This document shows positions 3,707 to 50,071 of a DNA stretch of 64,000 nt, one piece after another. The stretch is taken from the NCBI RefSeq assembly GCF_003573545.1, contig NZ_QWET01000001.1, forward strand, positions 372,001-436,000, given 5' to 3'. The position numbers and the translations under genes were made by a program. The notes under the pieces were generated by a model. The model worked only from the letters and a program-made list of their open reading frames with translations, made no database searches and was not told where the DNA came from. The DNA is from Mariniphaga sediminis (GTDB taxonomy: Bacteria > Bacteroidota > Bacteroidia > Bacteroidales > Prolixibacteraceae). Numbering within the stretch: position 1 is the stretch's first letter; each line of letters starts with the position of its first letter.

Positions 3707-4005
3707 TGACAAGTAATGGTCATTGTTCTTATCTTCCAATCTCTGGCAATGAATGGATACTGAATGATACATACCCGGATGAAAAACGGTTGCAAAATAT
3801 TTATTTATACCATGTCAAAAGAGAAGTAAAGGTTCTTTTAGCGAATTTATACCTTTCACCTGACTTTAAATTTGATAATGAGTTACGAGTCGACACCCAT
3901 CCACGTTACAGCCGTGATGGAAGAATGGTAGTAGTCGATTCTCCTCACGAAGGATATGGTAGGCAAATGTATTTATTGGATATTAGCAGAATTTTAGAAA
4001 ATTAA
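3706..4005 (+). pseudogene. C-terminal remnant of an oligogalacturonate-lyase-like / TolB-like beta-propeller protein
   Basis: A 99-codon frame with no room for an N-terminal domain. It reads GHCSYLP..EWILNDTYPD, then LYLYHV, then DTHPRYSRDGRMVVVDSPHEGYGRQMYLLDI. This pattern is typical of the last blades of Bacteroidota beta-propeller proteins annotated as oligogalacturonate lyase or TolB-like, normally 400 residues or more. The homology begins only 3-5 codons after the broken end of lutA, so the two remnants are joined by a deletion or recombination junction near 3690-3715. The ATG at 3706 overlaps the lutA stop codon but is probably coincidental. Its stop is followed after 42 bases by an rteC start codon, exactly the arrangement seen after both GH2 genes further on. 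Confidence 0.65.
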
Positions 4006-4241
4006 AATTTCAAAAAAACATAGTTTTACCATTCAAACTCAAACATCATGGATGTTAATGACCCACATCGTATTATTGAAAAATTTAAAAATACATTAGA
4101 CAAGTTACAACATACAAAAAAAATCCGCTTGCCTTAGTGGAAAAGATAGTTACTCTCTGTTCTCTGGCTCTCCTGGATTTGTTCGAGATTTTTATAACCA
4201 ATGGATTTAAAAGCCGGGAGGAAGAAATTTATTTTTTCAAA
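4004..4241 (+). repeat. repeat copy A: rteC leader plus 5' end
   Basis: This stretch matches 26443-26681 and 49811-50020 almost base for base. It contains a ~43-base leader (aaaatttc...ttaccattcaaactcaaacatc) followed by the start of an rteC gene. Homology to the intact copy stops at about 4241, after ...gaagaaatttattttttcaaa. The remaining bases up to the next promoter (about 4242-4349) show no recognisable coding content. Confidence 0.85.
4048..4241 (+). pseudogene. rteC 5' remnant A (frameshifted and truncated)
   Basis: The first codons read MDVNDPHRIIEKF, the same N-terminus as the intact RteC-like protein encoded from 26487. A deletion in the run of A residues near 4120 shifts the frame (…HTKKIRLP-stop), after which homology continues in another frame (LVEK, LCSLALLDL, FITNGFKSREEEI) until about 4241, where it ends abruptly. 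Only the first ~65 of ~283 codons are represented, so this cannot make a functional product. Confidence 0.8.
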
Positions 4242-4349
4242 CCCATAGGCAGAGTTAAGCATACATTAGCTGCTTAATTCCGCCAATGTACTATATGATA
4301 TTTACATCTATGGTTCTATGGGATTTAAAAAATTAAATCAAGAAATATA

Positions 4350-4357
4350 TATCTTTG
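4350..4357 (+). promoter_or_regulatory. candidate Bacteroidota -7 promoter box (TATCTTTG)
   Basis: TATCTTTG fits the Bacteroidota primary-sigma -7 consensus TAnnTTTG exactly and lies 32 bases before the TTG start of the first ECF sigma gene. No convincing -33 TTTG is present at the expected 19-21 base spacing, so this is a candidate only. Confidence 0.45.
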
Positions 4358-33957: not shown

Positions 33958-34027
33958 GTTATTTGTAACCTGACATTAAAAAAATCAAAATGCCTATGGA
34001 GTAAGATCTGCTGCTGACAACAAAAAA

Positions 34028-34055
34028 GCAGAAAGATGCGCACACATCCTTCTGC
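34028..34055 (+). promoter_or_regulatory. hairpin between fecR and susC (PUL 2)
   Basis: An 11-base stem (gcagaaagatg with catccttctgc, ten of eleven paired) around a six-base loop, 70 bases after the fecR stop and 47 bases before the susC start. It corresponds in position, not in sequence, to the hairpin of PUL 1. An in-frame ATG at 34036 lies inside the stem and was therefore not taken as the susC start. Confidence 0.5.
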
Positions 34056-34101
34056 TTCACGTGATTTAAAAGAAATTTTTAAACCTATTAAAAACAAAAG
34101 T

Positions 34102-37100
34102 ATGAAATTTCGCAAAAGAAAAGATGCGGGAGGGATAGTAAATCGCTCCGTACTTAAAATTTTAATGATTATGAAACTTACTACCTGTCTGTTTCTGATT
34201 TCAACCCTCGGCGTACTGGCGAATTTGTCGTATGCACAAAATACAAAGCTGACGCTTCACTTTAAAAACACTCCGGTGGAGCAAGTACTTTCGGCCATAG
34301 AAAACCAGAGTGAGTTCTTTTTTCTTTACAGCAAAAAGGCAGTTGACGTGGAACGTACAGTGGATATTTCTGCTAACGACGAGACTGTAATGACTATCCT
34401 GAATGAACTTTTCAGGAAAGAGAATGTGCACTACATTATCAAAGGACGGCATATCGTCCTTTCAGCCCGGGACAACCTGTGGAATACCGAATCCCTGGTT
34501 TACCAGCAACATACGGTTTCCGGTAAAGTTACTGACTCCGGCGGCTCACCTCTTCCCGGTGTAACAGTTGTAATTAAAGGCACCACTCATGGTACGGTAA
34601 CGAATGCGGACGGGGAGTATTCTATTTCTAACTTTCCTGAAGATGCTGTATTAGTGTTTTCGTTTGTGGGAATGAAGACACAGGAAATACCTGTGGCAGG
34701 AAAAGCATCAATCAATGTAGTGATGGCAGAAGAGACAGTTGGGATTAAAGAGGTTGTGGCGATTGGATATGGTACGATGAAAAAAGTGAATTTGACTGGA
34801 TCTATTTCTTCCGTTTCAGCGGGTGAGTTAGAAAAGAACCCTGTACAAAATCCATTGCAGGCATTACAGGGCAAGACACCAGGAATGCAGATTGTACAAA
34901 ATTCAGGTGAACCAGGGAATGAAGGTTATCAAATTCGTATCAGGGGGCTTAATTCATACGGGAGTTCAAACAATCCTTTGGTCATCATTGATGGAGTGGC
35001 CGGATCGTTGGATTTACTAAATCCTATAGATATTGAATCGGTATCCGTGTTGAAAGATGCTTCGTCAAGTGCTATATATGGAGCCAGAGCAGCAAATGGT
35101 GTTATTCTCATAACTACAAAATCAGGAGAAAAAGAACCAATGAGTTTGACTTACAGAGGGAATTTTGCGGTGCATGATGCTATTATGCCATTTGATTTTA
35201 TGAAGTTTGATACAGCGGCTGATTTTATGGAAGCTTTAAATGCAGCAGCTGATAATAATGAAGCTGTAGGTTATGCTGCAGCTCACCGTAAGTATTCGCA
35301 AGCTGAAATTGATCAATATAGAAATAATCCGGGTAGTAATCCTAATTTTGATTGGTTGGATTACATGATGCAATCGCCATTAGTAATGAACCACCATTTG
35401 GGTGCATCAGGTGGTACCGAAAAGGCGAGATACAATGTCTCCTTGGGGTATTACGACCAAAGTGGAGTGTTAAGGGGCTATGATTATAATAAATATACAG
35501 GCAAAGCTAAATTTGATTTTAAAATCAATAAACATATAGAAGTTGGAACTAATGTCATGTTTGGTTCGGGATTAAGAGAAGGAGCTTACTTGGATGCAAG
35601 AGATACCTGGTGGTGTACATTAATACAGCGGCCTACGTATGAGCCTAAGTTATCAGACGGGAGATGGACTTATTCGGCTTTTAGTCAGGAGTACACAAAT
35701 AAAAACCCGGCTCTTTCAATAAACAGAGAGGCAGCAGGATATAAGGACACTCATGAATATAATGTGATTACAAGCGCTTATCTACGAATAAATTTTTTGA
35801 AAAACTTTTCTTGGGATATTACCGGTGCAATGAATTATGACAGGGCTGAAGTTAAAGCTCATCAAAAGGTAGTACCCCAATATCTATATCATTCAGGAGA
35901 ATATTTTTATAATTGGGCTAAGTTTACCGAGATATCGTTGCAGGATACGTGGAAGAAATCAGTTAATAATACCGTCTACTCTACATTAAAATATAGTATT
36001 CTGCTGAACGAATCCCACGATATTAATTTAATAATTGGCTATAATCAAGAGAACTTCAAATATGAATACCTTGAGGGATATAGAAGAGGATTTAGTAGTG
36101 GAAATTTAGATGCTTTGTCTGCTGGAGAAACAGGAGAGATGGTTGGTACCGGGGATATTACAGATTGGGCTTTGCAATCAGTATTTGGCCGTGCGAACTA
36201 CGATTATAAGGGCAGATATTTATTTGAAACTTCTTTCAGATATGATGGCAGTTCACGTTTCCACCCGGATCACCGATGGGGGTTCTTTCCTTCATTGTCT
36301 GCAGGATGGAGATTATCAGAGGAACCATTTATGGATGATATTTCATGGGTAGATAACATTAAGTTGAGAGGTTCATGGGGACAATTGGGGAACCAGGATG
36401 TAGGTGCTTATCCCTATCAAGCGACAATTAATATTGGCAATAATTATCCTTTTTCTGGTGAAGTTTCTCAAGGAGTTTATTATAACACTTTTAATAACGA
36501 TAAAATAAGTTGGGAGACTACAGAAATAAATAATATTGGTGTCGATCTAAGTATTTACAGAGGACTTTTTTCAGTTAGCCTGGATGTCTATCAGAAAAAT
36601 ACTTCAGGCATAATAAGAAATATGCAAGTCCCAAGTGCTTTGGGTTTATCCGGACCCACAATCAACGGTGGTAAAATGAAAAATACCGGGTATGAGTTAA
36701 TAGTGGGGCATAGTAAGAAATTAAATGAATTTAATTACCAGATTAGTGCTACCTTATCTCGTTTCAAAAATACATTGGTTGATTACGGTGCAAGACACAT
36801 AAGCGGTCTGTATATTTATGAAGAAGGTCTTCCTTACAAGTCTTATTATATGCATGAGTTTGCCGGAATTTTCCAGGATCAGGAAGATATCGAAAGCTCT
36901 GCAAATCATCCTTATAAGGTTTATCCGGGAGCCATAAAATTAAAAGATCAGAATGATGATGGTGTTATAAATGGAGATGACAGAAAAGTTATAGATGGTG
37001 CATATCCAAAATTTGATGGGGGCTTGAACCTGGCATTCCAATATAAAAATTTTGATTTTTCCGCTTTTATTTATGGTGTATATGGGAAAAAGTTTTACGG

Positions 37101-37485
37101 ATCAGTTTTGGGAGTATGGCCTTATTACCAATTTTTGAGACCTGTAAAAGCATGGGAAAATGCATGGACACCAGAAAACCATTCCAATGAAATGCCTCTT
37201 CTGACATTTGACACACCTGCTGCTATTAGATACAATTCTTCCTTTTATTTAATGAATACTTCATACCTTCGGTTACGAAATCTACAGTTAGGTTACAATG
37301 TACCTGATGTTTATGTTGAGAAAATTGGGTTAAAATCATTGCGGCTCTATTTCTCAGGACAGAATTTGTTCACATTACATAATATGAAATTTGGAGGAGA
37401 CCCGGAAATGACTAGTAATGATGCCTGGAATGTAAGTTATCCCCAGGTTAAAGTGTTTTCTTTAGGGATAAATGTTAAATTTTAA
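34102..37485 (+). CDS. susC: SusC/RagA TonB-linked outer membrane transporter of PUL 2
   Basis: About 1127 residues from ATG 34102 (MKFRKRKDAGG); the in-frame ATG at 34036 would add 22 residues encoded by a hairpin. Parts: signal peptide ending ...NLSYAQ, STN domain (about 47-123, LTLHFKNTPVEQVLSAIENQSEFFF), carboxypeptidase-like regulatory domain (about 139-211), plug beginning VVAIGYGTMKK with VIIDGVAGSLDLLN and SVSVLKDASSSAIYGARAANGVILITTK, and a barrel ending VKVFSLGINVKF. It is TonB-dependent and imports oligosaccharides with its SusD partner while signalling through FecR. The region around 34556-34740 is nearly the same DNA as in the first SusC gene although the flanks differ. Confidence 0.96.
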   Translation: MKFRKRKDAGGIVNRSVLKILMIMKLTTCLFLISTLGVLANLSYAQNTKLTLHFKNTPVEQVLSAIENQSEFFFLYSKKAVDVERTVDISANDETVMTILNELFRKENVHYIIKGRHIVLSARDNLWNTESLVYQQHTVSGKVTDSGGSPLPGVTVVIKGTTHGTVTNADGEYSISNFPEDAVLVFSFVGMKTQEIPVAGKASINVVMAEETVGIKEVVAIGYGTMKKVNLTGSISSVSAGELEKNPVQNPLQALQGKTPGMQIVQNSGEPGNEGYQIRIRGLNSYGSSNNPLVIIDGVAGSLDLLNPIDIESVSVLKDASSSAIYGARAANGVILITTKSGEKEPMSLTYRGNFAVHDAIMPFDFMKFDTAADFMEALNAAADNNEAVGYAAAHRKYSQAEIDQYRNNPGSNPNFDWLDYMMQSPLVMNHHLGASGGTEKARYNVSLGYYDQSGVLRGYDYNKYTGKAKFDFKINKHIEVGTNVMFGSGLREGAYLDARDTWWCTLIQRPTYEPKLSDGRWTYSAFSQEYTNKNPALSINREAAGYKDTHEYNVITSAYLRINFLKNFSWDITGAMNYDRAEVKAHQKVVPQYLYHSGEYFYNWAKFTEISLQDTWKKSVNNTVYSTLKYSILLNESHDINLIIGYNQENFKYEYLEGYRRGFSSGNLDALSAGETGEMVGTGDITDWALQSVFGRANYDYKGRYLFETSFRYDGSSRFHPDHRWGFFPSLSAGWRLSEEPFMDDISWVDNIKLRGSWGQLGNQDVGAYPYQATINIGNNYPFSGEVSQGVYYNTFNNDKISWETTEINNIGVDLSIYRGLFSVSLDVYQKNTSGIIRNMQVPSALGLSGPTINGGKMKNTGYELIVGHSKKLNEFNYQISATLSRFKNTLVDYGARHISGLYIYEEGLPYKSYYMHEFAGIFQDQEDIESSANHPYKVYPGAIKLKDQNDDGVINGDDRKVIDGAYPKFDGGLNLAFQYKNFDFSAFIYGVYGKKFYGSVLGVWPYYQFLRPVKAWENAWTPENHSNEMPLLTFDTPAAIRYNSSFYLMNTSYLRLRNLQLGYNVPDVYVEKIGLKSLRLYFSGQNLFTLHNMKFGGDPEMTSNDAWNVSYPQVKVFSLGINVKF

Positions 37486-37498
37486 AAACTATGTAATT

Positions 37499-39019
37499 AT
37501 GAAAAATATAAAATATTTTTTAATATTCTTAACTATTACTTTCTGGAGTTGTGATGATTTTCTTGACAAATATCCCCACGATGAGCTCTCGGATAATACA
37601 TTCTGGAAAAATGAGGAAGAATTGCAGATGGGTTTGACTGCTTGTTATGGTTTGATGCAAAATGAATATATTTCGTCAGCTACAGGATCAGGAGATAAGG
37701 TTTATTGGGATGGTTTAACAGACAATGCATTTGTTAGTGATTTTTGGGGACTACAGGAATTTTACTCAGGAGATCAAAATCCAACTAATGATCTCGCAGG
37801 AGGGTTATACTCAAAATGTTATAATGTTGTAGCAGCCGTAAATTCTTTTCTTTCAAAGATTGACTTAGTTGATATAGAGCAGGAAAAAAAGAATAAATAT
37901 ATAGCTGAAGCTCGTTTTATAAGGGCTTATGTTTATCATGAATTAGTGTTAAACTTTGGTGGAGTTCCCTTATTCAGTTCAGAGCCGACGATTGAGAGTG
38001 CAAGTGTAGGCAGAAGCACTAAAGAAGAGGTAATGACTTTGATCAATAATGATCTTGATTTTGCAATCGAAAATCTTCCTGATGAAAGTTATACCGGGCA
38101 TGTGGTAAAAAATTCCGCACGAGGATTAAAGGCGCGTGTATTACTATATGGCGACGATTGGTCAGGTGTTGCACAATACACTCAAGATATCATGTCTTCA
38201 GGGAAAACATCACTTTATACTAATTATAAAAATATGTTTATTAATGAGGGCCAGGGAGATGATAATACTGAGATTTTGTTTTCAATAAAATTTTTGGCAC
38301 CTGAAGAATGGCATAACATTGATTACAGGGTAGGTGGCCCATCACATATCAATGTTCTTGAAGATTTGGTTAACGATTATTTGACAATAAATGGTTTGCC
38401 AATTGATGAAGATCCTATTTATAATCCAGATTCTTTACATAAAAACAGGGACCCCAGGTTACAACAAACTATTTTCTGTGAAGAAGGAGAGCCATGGATA
38501 TATGATGTAAACAATGGCTATACCTACTATTTTACCAATAATACAACGAAATTTTCTTGTAAAAAATATATTGATGAGAGTGTGCAGGCCAGTCATGTTA
38601 CACAAAGTGACCAAGATATTGTTTTGTTACGCTATGGCGATGTGCTTTTAATGTATGCCGAAGCTAAAAATGAATTGGGGCAATTCGGACAAAATGAATG
38701 GAATCAATCAATACGTCTAATTCGTGAAAGGGCTGGATTTATTGTTAGCCAAGCCTTGGATTTTCCAGGTGGAAATCAAAGCAATTTAAGAGAGATTATA
38801 CGGCATGAGCGCAGGATTGAAATGGCTTTTGAAGGATTCAGATACTATGACTTGTTAAGGTGGGGTAATATTAAAGAAGTATGGGAAAACATTGAGGGAG
38901 AGAACCCACAGGTAAGACAATACAATGAAAATAAACCGCTTTTCCCAATACCGGAGAGTCAAATAGATTATTATAACAATAATGATATTCCTTTTGAACA
39001 AAATCCTGGGTATAACTAG
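37499..39019 (+). CDS. susD: SusD/RagB glycan-binding lipoprotein of PUL 2
   Basis: A 506-residue surface lipoprotein starting at ATG 37499, where the lipoprotein signal MKNIKYFLIFLTITFWSC (Cys18) begins; an ATG at 37472 would overlap susC and spoil the signal. SusD features: FLDKYPHDELSDNTFWKNEEELQ, IAEARFIRAYVYHELVLNFGGVPLF, VLLRYGDVLLMYAEAKNELG, LIRERAGF, IIRHERRIEMAFEGFRYYDLLRWG, FPIPESQID and the final EQNPGYN. It partners the SusC directly upstream. Followed by a strong stem-loop. Confidence 0.95.
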   Translation: MKNIKYFLIFLTITFWSCDDFLDKYPHDELSDNTFWKNEEELQMGLTACYGLMQNEYISSATGSGDKVYWDGLTDNAFVSDFWGLQEFYSGDQNPTNDLAGGLYSKCYNVVAAVNSFLSKIDLVDIEQEKKNKYIAEARFIRAYVYHELVLNFGGVPLFSSEPTIESASVGRSTKEEVMTLINNDLDFAIENLPDESYTGHVVKNSARGLKARVLLYGDDWSGVAQYTQDIMSSGKTSLYTNYKNMFINEGQGDDNTEILFSIKFLAPEEWHNIDYRVGGPSHINVLEDLVNDYLTINGLPIDEDPIYNPDSLHKNRDPRLQQTIFCEEGEPWIYDVNNGYTYYFTNNTTKFSCKKYIDESVQASHVTQSDQDIVLLRYGDVLLMYAEAKNELGQFGQNEWNQSIRLIRERAGFIVSQALDFPGGNQSNLREIIRHERRIEMAFEGFRYYDLLRWGNIKEVWENIEGENPQVRQYNENKPLFPIPESQIDYYNNNDIPFEQNPGYN

Positions 39020-39050
39020 AAAATTTAAAATTCAATTAATTCAATAATAT

Positions 39051-39080
39051 AGAGGCTGTTGTTATTACTCAACAGCCTCT
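39051..39080 (+). terminator. stem-loop after susD (PUL 2)
   Basis: A perfect 11-base inverted repeat (agaggctgttg / caacagcctct) with an eight-base loop, 31 bases after the susD stop and followed by TATTACC. Position and strength parallel the element after the first susD. Likely a partial terminator or an mRNA-stabilising end that lifts susCD above the enzyme genes. Confidence 0.7.
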
Positions 39081-39160
39081 TATTACCACTTTCTATAAAA
39101 TTTTGAATTTCCCTAATTCGTTAAGGATAGACTATCTATTTATATATCACTTATCTCAAC

Positions 39161-40240
39161 ATGAACAATTTATTCAAAAAAATTCTATTCCTTTTATTTC
39201 TTCAGATATTGAGTCTATCTCAATTGCTTGCCCAACAAAATGCTTTCGTAAAATTAAATAATCCTGATTCATGGACAATGGTTTTGATTCCTGATCCACA
39301 GGCTTATGTGAAATTTGAACGGAACCAGCCAATAATGGATATTATAACTACGTGGCTCAAAACCAATAAAGAAGAATTGAATATTGAACTGGTGCTGTGT
39401 ACAGGTGATTTGGTGGAAAGCAACAATTCAATTATCCCCGGTCCCAAATATGGGGGAGATCAAACTGCTTGGCAGCAATGGGAGGCAATTTCCCATTCAT
39501 TCAATAAACTGAATAGTGTTGTACCGTATATTCTATGTGTAGGCAATCACGATTTAGAAACTTCGAAAGGTGCCTGTAGGTACAGCCAGTTTAATTCGTG
39601 GTTTCCTCCCAATGGAAATCCTCTTACCGAAAAATTGTTGGTGGATATGTTTCCAAATCCATCAAATGTGAAAACATTGGAGAATGCTTATTACGAATTT
39701 GTTTCACCTCATGGCGTTCCCTTTCTTATCTTTTCTTTAGAATTTTTGCCTAGGAATACAATTGTAAAACAGGCCGAAAAAATTGTTCGGATGGATAAAT
39801 ATGAGAAATACAAAAGCATTGTGTTAACCCACAGTTACCTGGAGGCAGATAATAGCCGTTGCCTGAAAGAAGGTTACCGGTTGAAAGATGTAACAAATGG
39901 GGAGGATTTGTGGAAGAGGCTAATTGCCCCCTCTGAAAATATTGAAATGGTAATTTGCGGGCACAAGGCCGGAAAAACGCATAGGGAACACGTTGGTTAC
40001 CGTATTGATAGAAATGCAGGAGGAAAAGGTGTACATCAGATTTTGTTTAATGCGCAATGGGAAGGAGGTGGTCCCAATGGTAACGGGGGTGATGGATGGA
40101 TCCGGATTTTTGAGTTTTTGCCGGATAAAAAAACAGTTCTGGTGAAAACGTTCTCCCCTCTTTTTGCAATCTCTCCGGAAACCCGGGATAAAGCTTTTAG
40201 GACAGCAGACTGCGATCAATATGAATTAAAATTAAAATAG
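39161..40240 (+). CDS. secreted calcineurin-like metallophosphoesterase 1
   Basis: A 359-residue exported protein with a signal peptide (...LSLSQLLAQ). It has metallophosphoesterase motifs in order: LIPDPQAYV (replacing the usual D-x-H), VLCTGDLVESN, ILCVGNHDLE, IVLTHSYLE and MVICGHKAGKTHREH. These bind two metal ions and cleave phosphate esters. It follows susD and precedes a GH32 gene whose start is only a few bases away, so it belongs to PUL 2. A second, different phosphoesterase is encoded at 43336. The substrate (phosphorylated sugar, phospholipid or nucleotide) is unknown. Confidence 0.8.
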   Translation: MNNLFKKILFLLFLQILSLSQLLAQQNAFVKLNNPDSWTMVLIPDPQAYVKFERNQPIMDIITTWLKTNKEELNIELVLCTGDLVESNNSIIPGPKYGGDQTAWQQWEAISHSFNKLNSVVPYILCVGNHDLETSKGACRYSQFNSWFPPNGNPLTEKLLVDMFPNPSNVKTLENAYYEFVSPHGVPFLIFSLEFLPRNTIVKQAEKIVRMDKYEKYKSIVLTHSYLEADNSRCLKEGYRLKDVTNGEDLWKRLIAPSENIEMVICGHKAGKTHREHVGYRIDRNAGGKGVHQILFNAQWEGGGPNGNGGDGWIRIFEFLPDKKTVLVKTFSPLFAISPETRDKAFRTADCDQYELKLK

Positions 40241-40246
40241 TTGGCA

Positions 40247-41929
40247 ATGAACAGGAAAACCACACTTCTCATTTTAATACTGATGACCACACTATTGGCA
40301 TCGGCGCAGCAAAGATTACTCAAGAAAGAATTCTTGGTTACCAATCAGTATTTACTTTTTCCAATAGACAATGGAGCGTCAAAATCACGAATGAACCTTA
40401 GCGTTGGGAACCTCAACACGTATTTTGATATTTGTTTAGCCTCTGATTCCGGGAAAGTTGATTTCTGGGTATATCTGGACGTTGGGCGGTTTATGAAAGA
40501 AAAATTAATAATTTCGACCTCTTTGGATAATCATCTGGAAAAGGGATTCGATTTATTATTGTTTGATGATAAAATAAAGACATTAGTACCAATTTATTCA
40601 GAGAAACTCCGGCCTCAATTACATTTTTCTTGTAAAAGGGGGTGGAATAGTGATCCAAACGGGTTGGTTTACTATGATGGCGAATATCATATGTTTTATC
40701 AGCACGATCCATTTGGCTGGAAGAAGAGCCTTGCCAGTTGGGGACATGCAGTAAGCAAAGACCTTATCCATTGGGAAGAATTGCCGGTTGTACTTTTCCC
40801 CGATTCAATGGGAATGATTAAGTCCGGCTCTGCAGTTGTGGATTTTAACAATACTGCCAGCTTCCAAAACGGGAAAGAAAAGGTAATCGTTGCAGCATAT
40901 ACCGCCGGGCCTGAGTATGGCAAAGTTTCTTTAATTGACTCTATTGAAGCATCACGGCAGTGCCTTGCTTACAGTAATGATCGTGGACGTACTTTTACCA
41001 AATACAAGGGAAATCCTGTTCTTCCTCTGTCAAAGAGAAAATTATGGTTTAACTCCAGAGACCCTAAAATATTCTGGTACGAACCCGACAGCAACTGGGT
41101 AATGGTATTGTTTGAAGGGCTGGGGCATTCAATTTATACTTCCGGGAATCTTAAAGATTGGAAATACGAAAGCCATGTGAAAGAATTCTGGGAATGTCCC
41201 GAGCTTTTTGAATTACCTGTCGATGGAAATCCCGAAAATAAAAAATGGGTCATGTACAGTGCATCGGGTAACTATAAGATTGGTAATTTCGATGGAAAAC
41301 AATTTATTCCCGAAACAGATAAAATACGATATTCAATATATCGGGATATGTATGCAGGCCAGACTTTTAATGATGAACCGAATGGAAGAAGAATCCAGGT
41401 GCTTTGGGGAAAAACCATTGCAGAAGGGATGCCATTCAACCAAATGATAACTTTCCCTACTGAACTGTCGTTAAAAACACACCGGGAAGGCGTTCGGATG
41501 CATGCTAATCCGATAAAGGAAATTTCAACGCTTTATAAAAAATCATACAAATACGGTTCTTTTGTTTTTGACAAAGAACTATTGATTAATGATTTTCAAA
41601 GTAAGTTGCTTCACATAAAGCTGGATATAAAAACATTAAGCGCCATTATCTTTTCAGTAACAGTTAATGGCTATAAGTTTACCTATGACGGCAACTTTAG
41701 TAAATTGAACGATGCTTTTATTCCCTTAATTGATGCTGAAAAATTAAAACTTGAATTTATTATCGATGTAAATTCAATAGAAGTTTATATTAATGACGGC
41801 CTATATGTAATGATGATACCTTACGATTCGAGTGATAAGCAACCTGAAATTCTGTTTAGCCCTACTATTGGTAAGACTACAATCGTTGAAAATCTCGAAG
41901 TACACGAATTAGAATCAATTTGGAAATGA
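40247..41929 (+). CDS. GH32 fructosidase (levanase/invertase-like)
   Basis: A 560-residue exported enzyme with signal peptide MNRKTTLLILILMTTLLASAQQ (ATG 40247 preferred to TTG 40241). It carries the GH32 five-bladed-propeller catalytic triad: WNSDPNG with nucleophile Asp136, SRDPKIFW with Asp272 (transition-state stabiliser) and WECPELFEL with acid/base Glu316. A C-terminal beta-sandwich begins near residue 440. The usual motif is WMNDPNG, so the Asn before the nucleophile is replaced by Ser, which may change specificity. A ~100-residue beta-like segment precedes the catalytic domain. It should release fructose (or similar) for the sugar porter encoded next. Confidence 0.93.
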   Translation: MNRKTTLLILILMTTLLASAQQRLLKKEFLVTNQYLLFPIDNGASKSRMNLSVGNLNTYFDICLASDSGKVDFWVYLDVGRFMKEKLIISTSLDNHLEKGFDLLLFDDKIKTLVPIYSEKLRPQLHFSCKRGWNSDPNGLVYYDGEYHMFYQHDPFGWKKSLASWGHAVSKDLIHWEELPVVLFPDSMGMIKSGSAVVDFNNTASFQNGKEKVIVAAYTAGPEYGKVSLIDSIEASRQCLAYSNDRGRTFTKYKGNPVLPLSKRKLWFNSRDPKIFWYEPDSNWVMVLFEGLGHSIYTSGNLKDWKYESHVKEFWECPELFELPVDGNPENKKWVMYSASGNYKIGNFDGKQFIPETDKIRYSIYRDMYAGQTFNDEPNGRRIQVLWGKTIAEGMPFNQMITFPTELSLKTHREGVRMHANPIKEISTLYKKSYKYGSFVFDKELLINDFQSKLLHIKLDIKTLSAIIFSVTVNGYKFTYDGNFSKLNDAFIPLIDAEKLKLEFIIDVNSIEVYINDGLYVMMIPYDSSDKQPEILFSPTIGKTTIVENLEVHELESIWK

Positions 41930-41977
41930 TATAATGTTGATGAAAATTAACTATTCGCGCAATTAAAATTAAGTTTA

Positions 41978-43309
41978 ATGAATAAAACAATACAGGTATT
42001 CACTTGGTCTATCATTGTAGCTTTGGGTGGTTTTCTTTTTGGATTTGATACCGCAGTTATTTCCGGCGTGGAGAAATCGATACAACAATTATTTGTGCTT
42101 TCTTCATTCTGGCATGGTTTTACAATATCCTCGGCCCTGATTGGTACAATTGTTGGAGCATTGGTTGCCGGAAGGCCGGCAGATAAATACGGGAGGAAGC
42201 CAATCCTTTTTGTAATTGCTTTTCTATACACAGTTTCCGCAATAGGAAGTGCCCTTTCAAATCAGATATTCACTTTTATCGTTTATCGTTTTATCGGAGG
42301 AATTGGAGTAGGAGCCTCTTCTGTAGTCGCACCTATATATATATCTGAAATATCTCCGGCAAAAGTAAGAGGACGCATGACAGCGCTTTTTCAGTTCAAT
42401 GTTATTTTCGGGATATTAATGGCATTTATATCGAACTACATGTTACGAGAAACCGGAAATGCTCCCTGGAGATGGATGCTTGGAGTTGAAGCTGCACCGT
42501 CTGCAATCTATTTTGTACTCTTATTTTTTGTGCCTGAAAGTCCAAGATACCTTATAAAAGCAGGGAATATTGTAAAAGCAAAGTATATTTTGACTAAAAC
42601 AGAACCGGGAAATATTGATAATGAAATCAATAAAATCCAGATAAATCTGAAACAATCAGGAACTGCAAAGAAAAAGCTTTTCGCTATGCGGTACATAAAA
42701 CCAATTTCCATTGCTTTTTTTGTTGCTATGTTTAACCAGTTCTCAGGAATTAATGCTATTCTTTATTATGCTCCGCGTATGTTTGAATTAGCTGGTTTTT
42801 CTTCTGATGATTCCATGTTCCAGCCTGTAATAATAGGATTAACGAATGGCATATTTACGGTATTGGGACTTGCAATAATTGATAAATATGGAAGGAAAAA
42901 ATTGCTGATTTCTGGTTCAGTGGGAATGTCGTTAAGTCTGGGACTAATTGCTTTTATTTTCTATACTTCTGGTAACATCGGATTTGAATTATTGATATTG
43001 CTTATTGTATATATTATGTTTTTTGCTTTTTCTACAGGAGCCGTAATTTGGGTGTTAATATCAGAAATTTTTCCCAATTCAGTACGGGGAAAAGGACAAT
43101 CATTGGGAAGCTTTACGCATTGGTTTTTTGCGGCTTTAATAACTTTCTTATTTCCTGTTATCGCTGAAGACACCGGAATGGGAGTGGGGCATTCATTTGC
43201 ATTTTTTTCATTCATGATGGTGGTTCAGGTATTTGTTGTGTGGAAATATTTTCCTGAAACCAAAAGAAAAACATTAGAGGAACTTGAGATAAAATTATCA
43301 AAACAATAA
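41978..43309 (+). CDS. MFS sugar porter (XylE/GLUT-like)
   Basis: A 443-residue inner-membrane transporter with twelve predicted helices and the sugar-porter signatures: GFLFGFDTAVISGV (helix 1), GRPADKYGRKP (loop 2-3), RFIGGIGVGASSVVAPIYISEISPAKVRGRM (helix 4-5), PESPRYLI, QFSGINAILYYAPRMF (helix 7), DKYGRKKLL and the C-terminal FPETKRKTLEELE. It imports a monosaccharide, probably by proton symport. Placed right after GH32, it likely takes up fructose released in the periplasm. Confidence 0.93.
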   Translation: MNKTIQVFTWSIIVALGGFLFGFDTAVISGVEKSIQQLFVLSSFWHGFTISSALIGTIVGALVAGRPADKYGRKPILFVIAFLYTVSAIGSALSNQIFTFIVYRFIGGIGVGASSVVAPIYISEISPAKVRGRMTALFQFNVIFGILMAFISNYMLRETGNAPWRWMLGVEAAPSAIYFVLLFFVPESPRYLIKAGNIVKAKYILTKTEPGNIDNEINKIQINLKQSGTAKKKLFAMRYIKPISIAFFVAMFNQFSGINAILYYAPRMFELAGFSSDDSMFQPVIIGLTNGIFTVLGLAIIDKYGRKKLLISGSVGMSLSLGLIAFIFYTSGNIGFELLILLIVYIMFFAFSTGAVIWVLISEIFPNSVRGKGQSLGSFTHWFFAALITFLFPVIAEDTGMGVGHSFAFFSFMMVVQVFVVWKYFPETKRKTLEELEIKLSKQ

Positions 43310-43335
43310 AAATATTTTCTTAAAAATTATTAATT

Positions 43336-44250
43336 ATGAAAAGTTACAATCGAATTTTTTTATTAATTATCATTACTCTTTTTTATACTTTCCAAGTAGC
43401 ATGTGCTCAAATTCAACAAAAAACGCCAGATAAAAAAGATTCTTTCAGTTTTGTATTCATGACTGATGTTCATATTCAGCCTGAAAGACATGCTGTTGAG
43501 GGGGTTTTACAAGCCATTGACACGATTAATAAGATAGAACCTGACTTTGTTCTTACGGGTGGTGATAATGTGATGGATGCTTCTTCTCAAAGTTTGGGTC
43601 GGGCCGATAGCTTATATTCGCTGTTTACTAATACCATGAAAGTACTTAAAATGCCATGGTATAGTACTTTTGGAAATCATGAAACTTTTGGGCTTCATAA
43701 GAAAGATTTTACTTCAGAGCAACGTAAAGGGATGTACAAAAAGTACTTTGAAAAAACGTATTATACATTTGAACATAAAGGCTGGCAATTTATTGTGCTC
43801 GATGCCATTATGTATGGAGATGGAAGGGAAGACAGGTATTACGGACAGATTGATTCGGTGCAAATGGACTGGATGAAAAGCGTTTTTGATACCATCGGAA
43901 CAGAAAAACCAGTCATTGTTTCATTGCATATCCCGATACTTAGTGTTGGTGACCAGATTGAAAAAAATGGTTTTACCCCGAGGTCAGTAATAAGGAGGGG
44001 AAATGCGATGGAGTTAATCAGGCTTTTTGAGGCCCACAATGTAAAAGCCGTATTACAGGGACATTTACACATGTACGAAGATATTTCGTTTAACGGTATC
44101 CATTACATTACAGCTGGTGCTGTATGCGGCGGATGGTGGGAAGCCAGGCTTCCAGGAAAAGAAAGGGAAGAGGGTTTTTTGTTGGTTAATATCAATGGAG
44201 ATGAATTTACATCGGAATATATTGATTATGGGTGGGATGTAGAAGAATAA
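43336..44250 (+). CDS. secreted calcineurin-like metallophosphoesterase 2
   Basis: A 304-residue exported protein with a signal peptide (...FYTFQVACAQ). All canonical metallophosphoesterase motifs are present: FMTDVHIQPE (D-x-H), DFVLTGGDNVMD, WYSTFGNHETFG, IVSLHIPIL and AVLQGHLHMYED. It is unlike the first phosphoesterase in sequence. It lies between the sugar porter and the GH95 fucosidase within PUL 2. The 286-base gap after it holds no gene that I can support. Confidence 0.85.
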   Translation: MKSYNRIFLLIIITLFYTFQVACAQIQQKTPDKKDSFSFVFMTDVHIQPERHAVEGVLQAIDTINKIEPDFVLTGGDNVMDASSQSLGRADSLYSLFTNTMKVLKMPWYSTFGNHETFGLHKKDFTSEQRKGMYKKYFEKTYYTFEHKGWQFIVLDAIMYGDGREDRYYGQIDSVQMDWMKSVFDTIGTEKPVIVSLHIPILSVGDQIEKNGFTPRSVIRRGNAMELIRLFEAHNVKAVLQGHLHMYEDISFNGIHYITAGAVCGGWWEARLPGKEREEGFLLVNINGDEFTSEYIDYGWDVEE

Positions 44251-44536
44251 TCTGAATTATAAACCAAATTTTTAAAAAATATTTTTACATTATATAGATA
44301 GTGCGATTTTTCACGCTTTTGAGGCTTCTAATATATGTTAAATTAGTTTAATGCCACGGCCATTGGGGAGGACTGGTATTGTTTGCAAAGTAAATTTCCA
44401 TTGAATACCTCGGGGTTCTACCTTGGGTAATCCATTCTTATGATGCTGTGCGATAGTGATTTTAGATTCACTATAATATAAATCAACTTTCTATACATTT
44501 TTAAATATTGAAAAGCAAAAAATTGTGTGTACAACT

Positions 44537-46903
44537 ATGTTTCTTGGCGTTATTTTAATGTTTCTTTCTTTAGGCTGTCAGAAGAAAACAGAAATTCCAG
44601 AGCGGCTTTGGTACACAAAATCTGCAAAAAGCTGGCATGAAGCTCTGCCGTTGGGAAATGGCAGATTGGGAGTTATGATATTTGGATCGGTAGCCGAAGA
44701 ACATCTTCAATTAAACGAAGAAAGCTTATGGGCTGGCGTGCCGGAAGATCCTTTCCCTGAAAATATAAAGAAACATTATGCGGAATTTCAACGTCTGAAC
44801 CTGGAAGGTCAATATCCACGTGCATTTGATTATGCTATGGCGCATTTGGCTGTTTCCCCAACCGCTTTCCGTTCCTATGAGCCTTTAGGAGATCTTTACC
44901 TTTATTTTGGACATAATAATCCTAAAAATTACAAACGTTCACTTAACCTGGAAAAGGGAATAAACACTGTGGAATATGAAATAAACGGGGATAAATTTGT
45001 TCGCGAATCATTTGTTTCGTCGAAATACAATGCTGTTTTTTATCATTTCACAAGTGTTGATAAAGAGGAGGTTGAGTGTTATATACGTTTTGAAAGAGAA
45101 AGAGACATTAGAAAGTATGTAAATGCTGATAATATCATTTGTGTTGATGGGCAAATTTTCGATGATCCGGAAGGGGATGATGACAACCAAGAGGGGTCTG
45201 GAGAAGGTGGCTACCATATGAAGTTTTCTGCTCATGTCGGAGTGAAGGTTGAAGACGGAAATATCATTGCAAAAGGTGATAGTCTGGTTGTTTCTGGCAC
45301 AAATGATTTTACAGTTATTGTGAGTTCCGTAACTGATTATAATCCTGATTTAATGAATTTTGATCGTACAATTGATTCGGAAAAAGAATCGCTCAAAATC
45401 ATGGAGACAGCATTGAATACACCTTACCAACAAATAAAGGAAGAACACATTCATGACTTCTCATCTGTTTATAATCGAGTTAAATTTCACTTAGGAGAAA
45501 ACCCAAAAGATACTATTCCAACAGATAAACGAATAAAAAATGTACAAAAAGGGGGTAATGATAATTACCTTACCCAGTTACTTTTTCAATATGGCAGGTA
45601 CCTTTTAATGTCCAGTTCAGGTTTTCGAGCCGTTTTGCCAGCCAACCTTCAGGGGATATGGAATGCAGATATGTGGGCTCCTTGGGAATCTGATTATCAT
45701 TTGAACATTAACTTGCAAATGAATTATTGGCCGGCTGATGTGTGCAATCTTTCGGAAACACTTAAACCTTTATCTAATTTTATGGTTAGATTGACTGAAA
45801 AAGGAAAAACAACAGCAAAAAAGATGATAGGTTCTGAAGGTTGGATAGCCCATTATTCAACAAATGTTTTTGGGCGTACAATTGCCTCGGGATCGACGAA
45901 AAGTTCACAAGTAAACAATGGCTATTGTTTTCCCCTGGCTGGTGCATGGATGTCTTTAACTTTGTGGCGACATTATCAGTTTACCCAAGATCAAGAATAT
46001 CTGAAAGATACAGTTTATCCGGTAATTAGCGGCGCTGTTGAGTTTATTCTTGATTTTCTGAAAGAAAACAGCAAGGGAGAACTGGTGACTGTGCCATCCT
46101 ATTCTCCTGAAAATTTTTACATCGATCCGGTATCTGGTAAGAGATTGCGTAACACGATGGCTGCTACTATCGATATAGAAATTATTCGTGATATTTTTGA
46201 TGCCTGTCTGTCTGCTGAAAAAATTCTGTCAAAAGATAAATTAACAAAAAGGATCCATGAAGTATTAGTAAAATTACCGTCAATAAAGATTGGAGCGGAT
46301 AGTACTATCCAGGAATGGTACGAAGATTACGAGGAAATAGAGCCCGGGCATCGTCATATATCCCATTTGTATGCTCTTTATCCATCCAATCAAATTACAA
46401 AAGCTACGCCTGAACTTTTTAAAGCAGCGCGGACAACAATAGAAAAACGTCTGTCAGGCGGAGGTGGACAAACCGGATGGAGTCGTGCCTGGATTGTAAA
46501 TTTTTATGCAAGATTATTTGATGGTAATGAATGTAACAAGCATATTAATGGCTTGCTCTCTGGGCAGGTTTCGTCAAACCTTTTTGACCTGCATCCGCCG
46601 CATGTTTTTCAAATTGACGGGAACTTGGGAGTTACCGCAGGTATTGCCGAAATGTTACTGCAGTCACATGAAAATAAAACAATACGTTTGTTGCCCGCTT
46701 TACCCAAGGATTGGAAAGATGGTGAAATAAAAGGGCTTTGTGCAAGAGGAAATTTTATTATTGATATTGATTGGAAGGATGGTAAAATGGAAACTGTCTG
46801 GATTTATTCTCCAAAAGGGGGAAAATGCAGACTTCGATATCAGGGAAAAGAAAAGGAATTTAGTATGAAAGCAGGTGAACAACTTAAATGGGCTAACTTT
46901 TAG
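44537..46903 (+). CDS. GH95 alpha-L-fucosidase-like lipoprotein
   Basis: About 788 residues from ATG 44537 with a short lipoprotein signal (MFLGVILMFLSLGC, Cys14); GTG 44525 is an alternative start. The N-terminal domain opens with the GH95 text LWYTKSAKSWHEALPLGNGRLGVMIFGSVAEEHLQLNEESLWAG. The (alpha/alpha)6 domain contains LPANLQGIWNADMWAPWESDYHLNINLQMNYWPADVCNL, with the Asn pair of NINLQMNYW that supports catalysis, then EEIEPGHRHISHLYALYP and GWSRAWIVNFYARLFDG, DGNLGVTAGIAEMLLQS. GH95 enzymes remove alpha-1,2-linked L-fucose (or L-galactose). This implies fucosylated material in the PUL 2 substrate. Confidence 0.95.
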   Translation: MFLGVILMFLSLGCQKKTEIPERLWYTKSAKSWHEALPLGNGRLGVMIFGSVAEEHLQLNEESLWAGVPEDPFPENIKKHYAEFQRLNLEGQYPRAFDYAMAHLAVSPTAFRSYEPLGDLYLYFGHNNPKNYKRSLNLEKGINTVEYEINGDKFVRESFVSSKYNAVFYHFTSVDKEEVECYIRFERERDIRKYVNADNIICVDGQIFDDPEGDDDNQEGSGEGGYHMKFSAHVGVKVEDGNIIAKGDSLVVSGTNDFTVIVSSVTDYNPDLMNFDRTIDSEKESLKIMETALNTPYQQIKEEHIHDFSSVYNRVKFHLGENPKDTIPTDKRIKNVQKGGNDNYLTQLLFQYGRYLLMSSSGFRAVLPANLQGIWNADMWAPWESDYHLNINLQMNYWPADVCNLSETLKPLSNFMVRLTEKGKTTAKKMIGSEGWIAHYSTNVFGRTIASGSTKSSQVNNGYCFPLAGAWMSLTLWRHYQFTQDQEYLKDTVYPVISGAVEFILDFLKENSKGELVTVPSYSPENFYIDPVSGKRLRNTMAATIDIEIIRDIFDACLSAEKILSKDKLTKRIHEVLVKLPSIKIGADSTIQEWYEDYEEIEPGHRHISHLYALYPSNQITKATPELFKAARTTIEKRLSGGGGQTGWSRAWIVNFYARLFDGNECNKHINGLLSGQVSSNLFDLHPPHVFQIDGNLGVTAGIAEMLLQSHENKTIRLLPALPKDWKDGEIKGLCARGNFIIDIDWKDGKMETVWIYSPKGGKCRLRYQGKEKEFSMKAGEQLKWANF

Positions 46904-46939
46904 TTCATTGAAAACACAGTCTAATCAAAATATACAATA

Positions 46940-49810
46940 ATGAAAAAAGCTCTTACAGTATATTTTCTCCTAATTAATTTTTACATAACCGCACAACCTA
47001 TCTCCCGAACCTTTGAACTAAGGTACTTTACCAGTGACCCTGCAGCCAATGGGGAAACAGATTTCAAGGGAGAAACCGAATGGTTTAACACTGAAGGTAG
47101 GGTTCAATTTTTAAATGAATATGCAAATTTTGCTTCCCGTTATTTTGATAATCCGGAGTTAGACAAGGAGATAGTTACGGAAGAAGAGATTGGTGATCTG
47201 GTAAGAAAAATGAAACCCCAACCAGGAACCAAAATCCGGCAGACAATTCCATTGAACGGATGGAAAACTTACGGCTATAAAAAAGGGCAGGACATTCAAA
47301 ACGAAAAAGAACTTGAGTTCTGGAATAACATTCCCGGGGCACGAATTATTAACGATAAGCTGGAATTACGCAATACCACTATCAAAAAAGAGTTCGGACC
47401 TTTAAACTGGCGGTTTAAACTGGAATGCAAGGTAATGGTTGCAGGGAACAGCCAGGTTACATTTAAACTGAAAGGAGAAGATAAAACGGCTGTCTCCCTG
47501 GCTTTAAACAAGGAAGAATTAAATACAGAAGGTTCTGAATTGGTTATCGAAGGGGACATGACCCAAAAAAGGTTTAATTGTTACGTGAATGGCAAACTGA
47601 TTCATGACTTTGCATTAATGACTGACACTACAGTTACAGCCATATCTGCTTTTTCAGTTTCAGTATCCGGTAATGGTTTTATTGATGACCTTTTTTTGTT
47701 CAATCACGTTTTGCAGGATAACGCCAATTATCCCTACTATTCGCAGGTTATTTTGGATGAGGATTTTGAAGAAAAACCTGCAATCGAAGGATGGCAATCC
47801 GTCTATTTCGACGATAGCCACTGGAAGAAGTCTGATTTGCCTGCCGTACACGGAGGCCTTCGTGAAAAGGAAGAATCCTTTTATCTAAGAAAAAAACAGT
47901 ATGTCGGAGAATTTGAAAGGGCTTTTTTACAAATAGAAACCCTCGACCCGGGTGGAGAAGTTTGGATCAATAACGAAGTAGTGGCTGTTGTTAATAACCG
48001 GCATCCCCAGGAAATAGAAGTTACCCGCTTTCTGAATAAGAATCAGGAGAACTTGTTTGCGGTTAAAGTAAACCCATACAAATTGAATTTTCCAATGCCG
48101 CATACCCCAACAGACCATCACATTGGATGGTTTTTGGGACGTACAAAACTGGAGCTTACCTCGAAATGCAGAATCAAAAGTGTGGTTGCTACTACCCGCG
48201 AGTTGGGAGAGGAGGCTATACAGGCACATAAAGTCATCCTGCAATACCCCACACGGAATTTTTTTGAGGGGAGTATTGAAATCAATTACTATCCCTGGTT
48301 CCCGGAGGAAGGCGAAAGGGTTGCCTCTTTCTCCCGCGAAATAAAAGTACGCCCAAGGATAGCTCATGAATTCCATTTCGATATTCCCGTACCTTCCCCC
48401 GGCCTGTGGAGCCCGGAATCACCGAACCTGTACAGGGTTGAGACAATTTTAAAAGATAAAGAAGGGAACCCTGTGGACGACTTTGTAACCACTACCGGAA
48501 TAAGGACGGTAAAGCAGGCAAACGGTCACCTGTATATCAACGGGAAAGCCGAGATGTTAAATGGTGCACAAATTATGGGATTTCGCACTCCCATTGAAAC
48601 AACCTCAAAGTATAACAGATGTGCACCACTTGAAACCGTGGCTGAGGAGATGCTCATGATAAAAAAAATGAATGCAAACATGCTACGTGTGCATGTACAT
48701 GCCGAAAAAGATACAGTAGATGGAATAAATGATCCGCGGTATGCTGAATTTGCCGATCAGATGGGCATTTACCTGATATGGTCCACAGCCGGATTTATCA
48801 GGGAAGGTGAGGCCTGGAATGTGGATTTTGAAGGTTATCCCAAATTTATGAAACAGGTCATCAATCATCCGAGCATTGTTCTCTGGGAAGCCTCCAACCA
48901 CCCCAACCGTTTTAAACTTCACGATATTTCCGAAACGCATGACTATATAAAGAAAATATATCAAACTATTTCCGATGCCGATCAAAGCCGGTTAATTTCA
49001 CCAACCTCTTTTTGGCAACATACCCACTATGCAAATTATGATGGTACCCTGGATTACCAGGGCAATTCCATTACAGCAGTCCCAGAATACATGGCTGCCC
49101 TTAATACACGGGGAAGCCAGGATGCTTATACCGGATATGGCGCCGATTGGTCCAGGCTCCGGAATGCCCCGAACGATTGGGCCGCCTCCTGCCTTGCTGC
49201 GAATGATAAGGCCTATTTTAATTTCGAACACGAAGAGTCGGCAGGGCAGCCCAACTGGGAATTATGTAAAGGGAAACCCTGGTATTTAATCCATTCTTAT
49301 GAATGGGATTATGATAAAGGTAGTGTAGGGAGGCGTTTAACATTGGACGAATGGCGGGCAAGCCAGGCGTGGCAGGCCTTTTCAGCCTGGGAGTCGATGA
49401 AAAAACAAATGTTGCTGGGGTACGATGGTTTTTCGTGGTGCTGCCTTCGGGGAGGAGCCAACATGGGAACGTACCAGAAACCGTTAATTGACAACCTGCG
49501 TCACCCTAAACTGGCCTACTATACCAATAAAATGGTTTTTCAAAAAACATGGGCCGCCAGCAATAATGTGGATGTGGTTTATGGCCCAGAGGATGAGGTA
49601 ATTCCTTTTGTTCATCATTTAGGGAAAAAAAAGCAAGTTGACCTTTTTGTTGAACTTCAAACCCCGGAAGGAAAAACCATAGAAAAAAAATCATTCGAAA
49701 ATATTCAACTCCCTGAAGGAAGGGGAATTGTCCAGTTGGAAAAATTCAGGTTTAAAAAGATGAAAGATGGAGTTTATGTTATAAAATACGAACTGAAAAA
49801 TTCAAAATAA
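46940..49810 (+). CDS. GH2-like beta-glycosidase, copy 2, with altered acid/base motif
   Basis: A 956-residue exported protein, the close paralogue of the one at 23573 (same length, about 36 differences after the signal peptide). The signal peptide MKKALTVYFLLINFYITAQ is different, so the copies may be exported or expressed differently. It keeps the same HPSIVLWEASNHPN segment (Asn653-His654 where most GH2 enzymes have Asn-Glu) and the FNFEHEESAG cluster. Most differences are conservative; the last ~80 residues vary most. It closes PUL 2 and again stands 42 bases before an rteC head. Confidence 0.8.
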   Translation: MKKALTVYFLLINFYITAQPISRTFELRYFTSDPAANGETDFKGETEWFNTEGRVQFLNEYANFASRYFDNPELDKEIVTEEEIGDLVRKMKPQPGTKIRQTIPLNGWKTYGYKKGQDIQNEKELEFWNNIPGARIINDKLELRNTTIKKEFGPLNWRFKLECKVMVAGNSQVTFKLKGEDKTAVSLALNKEELNTEGSELVIEGDMTQKRFNCYVNGKLIHDFALMTDTTVTAISAFSVSVSGNGFIDDLFLFNHVLQDNANYPYYSQVILDEDFEEKPAIEGWQSVYFDDSHWKKSDLPAVHGGLREKEESFYLRKKQYVGEFERAFLQIETLDPGGEVWINNEVVAVVNNRHPQEIEVTRFLNKNQENLFAVKVNPYKLNFPMPHTPTDHHIGWFLGRTKLELTSKCRIKSVVATTRELGEEAIQAHKVILQYPTRNFFEGSIEINYYPWFPEEGERVASFSREIKVRPRIAHEFHFDIPVPSPGLWSPESPNLYRVETILKDKEGNPVDDFVTTTGIRTVKQANGHLYINGKAEMLNGAQIMGFRTPIETTSKYNRCAPLETVAEEMLMIKKMNANMLRVHVHAEKDTVDGINDPRYAEFADQMGIYLIWSTAGFIREGEAWNVDFEGYPKFMKQVINHPSIVLWEASNHPNRFKLHDISETHDYIKKIYQTISDADQSRLISPTSFWQHTHYANYDGTLDYQGNSITAVPEYMAALNTRGSQDAYTGYGADWSRLRNAPNDWAASCLAANDKAYFNFEHEESAGQPNWELCKGKPWYLIHSYEWDYDKGSVGRRLTLDEWRASQAWQAFSAWESMKKQMLLGYDGFSWCCLRGGANMGTYQKPLIDNLRHPKLAYYTNKMVFQKTWAASNNVDVVYGPEDEVIPFVHHLGKKKQVDLFVELQTPEGKTIEKKSFENIQLPEGRGIVQLEKFRFKKMKDGVYVIKYELKNSK

Positions 49811-50020
49811 AAATTTTCAAAAAAATAGTTTTACCATTCAAACTCAAACATCATGGATGTTAATGACCCACACCGTATTATTGAAGAATTTGAAAATGCT
49901 TTGTACAAGTTACAGCATACAAAAGAAAATCAGTTTGCCTTAGTGGAAAAGATGGTTTCTCTCTGTTCGCTGGCTTTTCTGGACTTGCGTGAGATTGTTA
50001 TAACCAATGGATTTAAAAGC
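46994..50020 (+). repeat. ~3.03 kb direct repeat, copy 2 (GH2-like gene plus rteC head)
   Basis: Matches 23627-26654. The spacing between copies is 23367 bases, so the mobile module, sulfatase and the whole of PUL 2 lie between two long direct repeats. Homology ends at about 50020 (…ggatttaaaagc), beyond which copy 1 continues into the intact rteC gene and copy 2 does not. Confidence 0.9.
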
Positions 50021-50071
50021 CATAGTGATTTAGTTTCCAGTCCGACCATTCAGTTTCAAGCAAAGTACTGA
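49853..50071 (+). pseudogene. rteC 5' remnant C (truncated)
   Basis: The first 56 codons (MDVNDPHRIIEEFENALYKLQHTKENQFALVEKMVSLCSLAFLDLREIVITNGFKS) match the intact RteC-like protein with few changes and without frameshift. After ...NGFKS the sequence turns into unrelated codons (HSDLVSSPTIQFQAKY-stop). The next 125 bases (50072-50196) hold a start-less fragment reading STYDYIVELVWQYGKYPLQIEE, whose family I do not recognise; it runs into the 3' end of the AraC gene on the other strand. Confidence 0.85.

Follow-up and report, generated by a model that had tools for sequence, protein, structure and literature searches.

Why should the same short leader, followed by the beginning of an rteC gene, occur three times in one stretch of DNA, alongside loci for glycan use? 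The question arises in Mariniphaga sediminis (Prolixibacteraceae; assembly GCF_003573545.1), in positions 372,001 to 436,000 of contig NZ_QWET01000001.1, a stretch of 64,000 nucleotides referred to here as the window; positions are given on the window's scale, and contig positions are preceded by C1. In a preliminary description, the three copies had been read as traces of a stepwise accretion or exchange of polysaccharide utilization loci (PULs) at an rteC-centered locus, possibly a new PUL-capturing system. We find that rteC is the first gene of the core of an integrative and conjugative element (ICE) of the type of CTnDOT, with a type IV secretion system of class B (T4SS-B). The window is probably part of a degenerate ICE, in which the truncated rteC copies would result from ICE accretion followed by deletion. 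In the likeliest reading, each of these copies stands where a PUL slot once had its right edge and was left behind as stacked ICEs lost their cores.

rteC copies and ICE core in the window

Comparison of the window with itself (self-BLAST) recovered the leader and the rteC 5' end (the head) in three copies on the forward strand: a truncated one at 3998-4241 (copy 1), one that continues into a full gene of 283 aa at 26444-27338 (copy 2), and another truncated one at 49804-50021 (copy 3). Copy 1 matches 26437-26681 with 91.0% identity, and 3998-4215 matches copy 3 with 88.6%; chance is ruled out for these matches by E-values of 1e-73 to 1e-93. The leaders are 95.3% identical between copies 1 and 2 and 92.9% between copies 2 and 3, and the heads 94.7% between copies 2 and 3, 90.7% between copies 1 and 2, and 88.0% between copies 1 and 3. 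The ATG codons (4048, 26487, and 49853) follow the preceding stop at a distance of 42, 43, and 42 nt. The sole full rteC gene of the window (26487-27338) belongs to the RteC family by its Pfam match (PF09357, E = 8e-74, 248 bits). Homology of the heads stops at 4241 in copy 1 and at 50021 in copy 3, after ~65 and ~56 codons, and copy 1 is also missing one base, with the frame lost. The preliminary description was thus accurate on the number of copies (self-BLAST identities of 88 to 95%), on the middle one alone being full, on their spacing of 42 to 43 bases, and on the different break points of the outer heads. Its proposed search of the genome with 4004-4241 gave three matches, as many as there are copies in the window, and Pfam RteC identified one gene in this genome.

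Each copy had also been placed behind a carbohydrate gene, which holds for copies 2 and 3 (GH2 in both cases) but is not shown for copy 1, where a 99-aa open reading frame (ORF; 3706-4005, forward strand) without Pfam match precedes the leader. This ORF is probably what is left of the 3' end of an earlier cargo gene. Just before it, at 3013-3706, two adjoining short ORFs each carry a CCG (cysteine-rich) domain, as if one gene had been split or the two formed a small operon. The similarity shared by copies 2 and 3 (23642-26655 and 47009-50021, both forward; 95.6% over 3,014 nt) extends through the preceding GH2 gene, which is included except for its first ~100 nt, so that the two copies belong to a single repeat.

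Behind the full rteC, four ORFs of 79, 98, 161, and 243 aa form the start of the ICE core (27652-29425, forward strand): the 79-aa ORF (family c14), an ORF of the HTH_17 cluster (28007, c1), the 161-aa ORF (28291, c2), and a DnaC-like ORF of the AAA cluster (28694, c3). Clustering of the neighboring genes of loci from named genomes and from relatives has shown that these families recur downstream of rteC, followed by conjugation genes in many loci; among the cluster representatives, that of c1 matches HTH_17 and that of c3 a weak AAA/DnaC-like profile, and others match DUF4134 or a tyrosine integrase. Near the right end of the window, the core gene c181 (61920-63215, reverse strand, 431 aa) is 63% identical to its counterpart in an ICE of the congener G002, and a 162-aa ORF without Pfam match (63452-64000, forward strand) leads toward the tra region. 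Beyond the window end, and on its scale, follow c9 (64180), a TraE-like gene (64559), TraG (65061), TraJ (69071), a coupling protein (73049), and a relaxase (76832). The TraG matches (70% identical) begin at C1:437190, ~1.2 kb beyond the window. Among the cluster representatives, TraG exceeds the TIGR03783 cut-off, and TraJ reaches an E-value of 7e-44 with TIGR03782 but stays under its cut-off; the relaxase (PF03432) and coupling protein (PF02534) of this genome have homologues in relatives. Since these conjugation genes lie behind the rteC-linked core ORFs and past the window end, the window is located inside an ICE, to the left of its transfer genes, and the earlier assignment of rteC to a CTnDOT-type mobile element is borne out by the core that follows it (rteC, HTH, AAA ATPase, TraG, TraJ, coupling protein, and relaxase).

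Both cargo loci contain a SusC/SusD pair together with glycan enzymes, as expected of PULs. PUL1 (4390-26443, forward strand) encodes an extracytoplasmic function (ECF) sigma factor, FecR, SusC (6210), SusD (9681), GH20 (14118), an esterase-like protein (22328), and GH2 (23543-26443); PUL2 (32069-49810, forward strand) encodes an ECF sigma factor, FecR, SusC (34036), SusD (37472), GH32, a sugar transporter, GH95 (44525), and GH2 (46940-49810). Both PULs had first been described as flanked by rteC sequence, but PUL2 does not begin at the full rteC: the four-ORF module, a piece of DUF4143, and a sulfatase gene intervene. The AAA gene and c181 are separated by less than 100 nt in the ICEs of G002 and G163c, versus 32.5 kb in the window (29426-61919: the DUF4143 piece, sulfatase, PUL2, head 3, AraC, RhaT, and other genes as far as Nramp and an ORF of 252 aa). 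Therefore, the block with PUL2, head 3, and AraC/RhaT was probably inserted into the core. Within the same stretch, two adjacent BNR-repeat genes at 55417-57836, with ~75% DNA identity, represent a tandem gene duplication. Beyond the relaxase, at C1:450248-470203 of this genome (G000), defense-like genes are found (Schlafen/AlbA, AAA-DUF234, CRISPR-associated TM1802 and Cas3, and Fic).

The cargo slot in related genomes

When the DNA of the full rteC gene was run against 149 relatives, the only matches outside its own genome were 104 nt or shorter, and profiles found more. The rteC head profile matched in 23 of the 149 relatives and in 42 of 140 genomes of the family f1, which we take to be Prolixibacteraceae (own genome counted and a low-scoring other group included), and in 9 of the 23 Prolixibacteraceae genera searched. 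Forty rteC positions were tabulated, one of which, a duplicate row (G085b 5161594), was removed. The table omits the low-scoring rteC of the other group, the contig-end cases (G075, G025 C115, G059 C209, G072, G073, G036, and G037 C16), further matches of G157, G163, G166, and G188, and, among others, G158, G183, G155, G165, G151, G156, G189, G186, G154, G187, G169, G190, G191, and G193. HTH and AAA genes are present within 5 kb behind rteC at 24 of the 39 loci. The core-intact set used below comprises 23 loci with at least 15 kb of upstream sequence, which places the core-intact locus G059 C41 (less than 15 kb upstream) outside it.

The usual order in the relatives is a tRNA gene, a tyrosine integrase, a PUL (ECF sigma, FecR, SusC, SusD, and glycosidases), rteC, HTH, AAA ATPase, TraE/TraG/TraJ, coupling protein, and relaxase. 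The PUL slot thus lies between integrase and rteC, and the last cargo enzyme gene therefore precedes rteC. An integrase on the same strand upstream of rteC, with a PUL in between, was identified at 10 of the 23 core-intact loci (one of them, G085b, a 106-aa fragment). In the 30 kb upstream, 18 of the loci have a SusD on the same strand (21 if either strand is considered). In two genomes, which have 37 SusD genes in 5.71 Mb and 51 in 5.3 Mb, the one-strand background expected for SusD in 30 kb amounts to no more than 9.7% and 14.4%, respectively, calculated as genes × 30 kb / 2 / genome length from Pfam PF07980 matches with split rows merged; SusD at the loci was identified by a profile built from the loci. 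The binomial tail at 14.4% is 2e-12 for 19 of 24 rows (before removal of the duplicate), a value that serves as a guide only, given that the loci are related and the background comes from two genomes.

The gene preceding rteC was tested at 18 of 22 listed loci (among them L101, whose rteC belongs to another group, and L131, with a truncated head); L055, L113, L116, and L124, in which that gene is 0.6 to 8.6 kb away, were omitted. In 16 of the 18, the closest ORF on the same strand with 150 aa or more is glycan-related: melibiase GH36, Melibiase_2, rhamnosidase, 3-keto-disaccharide hydrolase, fucosidase (twice), GH127, GH5/GH2-type, GH92 (twice), GH42, GH2, NAGLU, GH3, mannitol dehydrogenase, and a symporter/NANM protein. 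The two exceptions are a TPR/cytochrome protein and a DUF5686 protein. In support of the preliminary description, other genomes have rteC genes and truncated heads behind carbohydrate genes, together with different PULs. Eight loci (L110, L131, L115, L108, L228, L119, L109, and L111) have an rteC leader of ~100 nt with a long-range inverted repeat, of which TTGAACTGTTA ... TAACAGTTTAA is one form among several and which may be an rteC operator or attenuator; the window leader has only 42 to 43 nt.

At the left end, a tRNA gene adjoins 8 of the 12 integrase ends scanned, namely tRNA-Lys in four (G085a, G037 C11, G037 C33, and G053), tRNA-Pro in two (G059 C181 and G025 C81), and tRNA-Arg in two (G002 and G163c). 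Behind the tRNA-Lys genes of G037 C33, G037 C11, G085, and G053, the motif AAAAGCGCTTAAATC was observed, with the variant AAAAGCACTTAAAA behind tRNA-Arg in G002 and G163; it is likely a mark of the ICE left end. The only copy delimited at both ends is that of G002, a 54.7-kb ICE in tRNA-Arg with the order integrase, PUL, rteC, tra genes, coupling protein, and relaxase, bounded by a 20-nt repeat of the tRNA end, the second copy of which is followed by a terminator-like hairpin. The ~120 nt behind the tRNA-Arg gene of G000 are not the left end of the G002 ICE, and the right flank of the G002 ICE was not located in the examined loci; no claim of an empty site is made for this gene. Among the right ends compared by tblastx (G002, G085, G037 C11, and the M. 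sediminis region), the relaxase is the one long common stretch, and G085 and G037 C11 share additional short pieces.

Origin of the truncated heads

Arrangements like that of the window recur in other genomes, contrary to what would be expected of an ancient local duplication with nothing alike elsewhere. In G085, a PUL and a GH92 gene are followed by an rteC head (in a 196-aa ORF), a 160-aa 3' fragment of an integrase, a sigma-FecR-SusC-SusD set, a full rteC, and the core up to the relaxase; sigma and FecR of PUL1 are 74% and 67% identical to their counterparts in a PUL of a G085 ICE. In G023, sigma-FecR-SusC-SusD starts ~160 nt behind the last rteC-like stretch (148 nt in the window), and a 128-nt stretch that leads up to sigma and into it has 77% DNA identity to the window. 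A head also lies before FecR-SusC-SusD, with sigma reversed, in G037 C11, and a truncated head behind a PUL in G174, while in G075 and G025 C115 no core is present behind the head on the examined contig. Modules that break after rteC or c14 were found in G085d, G157 C33 and C34, G059 C206, and G031. Truncated heads outside the window lie within ORFs of 111 to 196 aa, and their break points vary.

ICEs of this family may also occur one behind another. G163 carries two PUL-bearing ICEs in the same orientation with their rteC genes 70 kb apart; G157 C34 shows rteC-c14, a reversed integrase, a PUL, and a full rteC with core. In G059, one of two ICEs adjoins a whole tRNA-Pro gene, whereas no more than the final 20 nt of this tRNA precede the integrase of the other, which is what the second element of a tandem would show. 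Two or three related ICEs or cargo blocks would once have been arranged in tandem in M. sediminis. Deletions reaching from inside rteC to the start of the next PUL would have removed the core of the preceding ICE along with the next integrase, leaving a scar made up of the last cargo gene, the leader, and the rteC head; the scattered end points of the heads are consistent with such deletions. Head 1 and its preceding ORF would then be the edge of an older cargo, and PUL1 with the full rteC and the core the surviving ICE, into which the block of PUL2 and head 3 was probably inserted between the AAA gene and c181, judging from G002 and G163c. RteC is a regulator of excision in CTnDOT, and by analogy the surviving rteC presumably controls excision genes. 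Of the original proposal, the piling up of PULs at this locus is retained, with ICE accretion and deletion as the probable mechanism. The notion of a new capturing system centered on rteC is not supported: the core that begins with rteC is that of an ICE with an integrase and T4SS genes, and the PUL lies between integrase and rteC.

Several observations weigh against this explanation. The deletions, the stacking, and the insertion are inferred and not observed. In C1:292001-514000 no ICE-type integrase was found, the only related gene being XerD-like (C1:304445), with counterparts in relatives; one tRNA-Pro gene (C1:472009-472084) has no integrase in its neighborhood, and the attachment (att)-like motif patterns tried over this region gave no useful match. 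Synteny with the G002 C30 stretch reaches the end of the XerD-like gene (C1:305005) and then diverges, by which the left cargo end is not fixed. At the junction of head 1, no integrase trace scored above shuffled sequences. Among the core-intact loci, 13 of the 23 have no same-strand integrase in the examined stretch, and five (G076a, G030, G058, G044, and G188a) have no same-strand SusD in 30 kb, although G030, G058, and G044 have a reversed one. The integrase is reversed in G157 C34 and G163b, the nearest integrases of G076 are downstream and reversed, and 4 of the 12 integrase left ends scanned (G085b, G059 C151, G163b, and G157 C34) adjoin no tRNA gene. To the left of the second G059 ICE there is no match to any of the four ICE right ends, and no second att copy was found in the examined parts of the G163 pair. 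Finally, several PULs occupy the slot in G053 and in G037 C33, and no rteC head separates them; stacking, therefore, need not leave a scar. Given that C1:292001-514000 yielded neither an ICE-type integrase nor an att-like motif, we term the window copy an ICE remnant; it is probably no longer mobile.

Alternatively, homologous recombination at rteC and at its leader could exchange cargo from one ICE to another, with the heads stemming from incomplete exchanges. The similarity of the two G059 cores (87.7% over 10.5 kb) sets in 102 nt upstream of rteC, with unrelated cargo in front, and at the transition between the HTH gene and c14/rteC in G085 the identity falls from 88% to 75%, a sign of recombination there. 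However, exchange alone does not account for truncated heads that have a PUL left end or an integrase fragment behind them, and we consider it an unlikely origin of the heads. Somewhat less likely still is a plain local duplication, in which a PUL end (GH2, leader, and rteC head) was copied by ordinary recombination and decayed, the ICE being incidental. The 3-kb repeat of copies 2 and 3 would agree with it, as would 293 nt shared by the two SusC genes at 82% DNA identity and the closeness of the three heads to each other (88 to 95%) compared to the best-scoring match in any other genome searched (76% over 101 nt). Yet beyond GH2 and the SusC piece, the self-BLAST found no further DNA similarity between PUL1 and PUL2, their enzyme sets differ, copy 1 shares nothing upstream of the leader, and the orders head-PUL-full rteC in G085 and head-PUL in G023 would be left aside. 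That the rteC 5' part is a site-specific integration site, at which PUL elements insert and restore the gene with a head of their own, would fit the order head-PUL-full rteC at 4048-27338 and in G085, but is set aside as very improbable because the heads end at different points, with no common junction sequence seen in the eight junctions compared, family members adjoin tRNA genes, and an integrase 3' fragment follows the G085 head.

Relation to known mobile elements

PUL gain and stacking in Bacteroidota have so far mostly been inferred from scattered transfers. With accretion and deletion of ICEs as the probable history of the window, the relatives point to an ICE family with a recurrent cargo slot, bordered by integrase and rteC, in which truncated heads mark some earlier cargo joins. 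Past PUL acquisitions would thereby become readable in genomes, newly acquired PULs predictable by position, and natural composite elements available as test material for PUL stacking. A more far-reaching idea, that the family is a dedicated PUL carrier with the rteC leader as a recombination-prone border for swapping or stacking new PULs between integrase and rteC, that composite ICEs with several PULs move as a unit, and that the heads record some of the swaps, is speculative and, in our view, doubtful.

The elements resemble the CTnDOT/T4SS-B ICEs of Bacteroidota in having RteC, TraG and TraJ of the Bacteroidetes type, a coupling protein, a relaxase, and, in relatives, a tyrosine integrase; integrase and ends are likewise found in relatives, both ends in G002 only. 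They differ from them in the position of rteC at the left edge of the core with PUL cargo in front, in the use of tRNA genes as sites, and, for the window copy, in having no ICE-type integrase nearby. CTnDOT itself is characterized by a tetQ-rteA-rteB operon and by excision that tetracycline induces. Movement of PULs by ICEs is familiar from the porphyran and alginate PUL elements of gut Bacteroides. Among the papers listed by our literature searches, which mostly did not cover subscription journals, none was on such an ICE family in Prolixibacteraceae. ICEEa1 of Elizabethkingia anophelis is a T4SS-B ICE with a tyrosine integrase, a relaxase, and two RteC genes, but, in the parts of the source consulted, it is inserted in mutY and its named cargo is a cation efflux system instead of a PUL (PMC5458099). 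In gut Bacteroidetes, mobile elements have been reported to carry 47 SusC/SusD loci; ICEs that are composite or in tandem are described as well, together with an island that arose when an ICE was partly deleted (PMC6907783). The PULs on mobile elements and the proposed tandem ICEs of our set have counterparts there. That set comes from gut genomes and ours from Prolixibacteraceae, and the sections consulted mention neither a fixed slot for PULs between integrase and rteC nor scars of rteC that separate stacked PULs. While ICE-borne PULs and tandem ICEs are already known, what looks new is the recurrence of the integrase-PUL-rteC slot, together with the scars of rteC.

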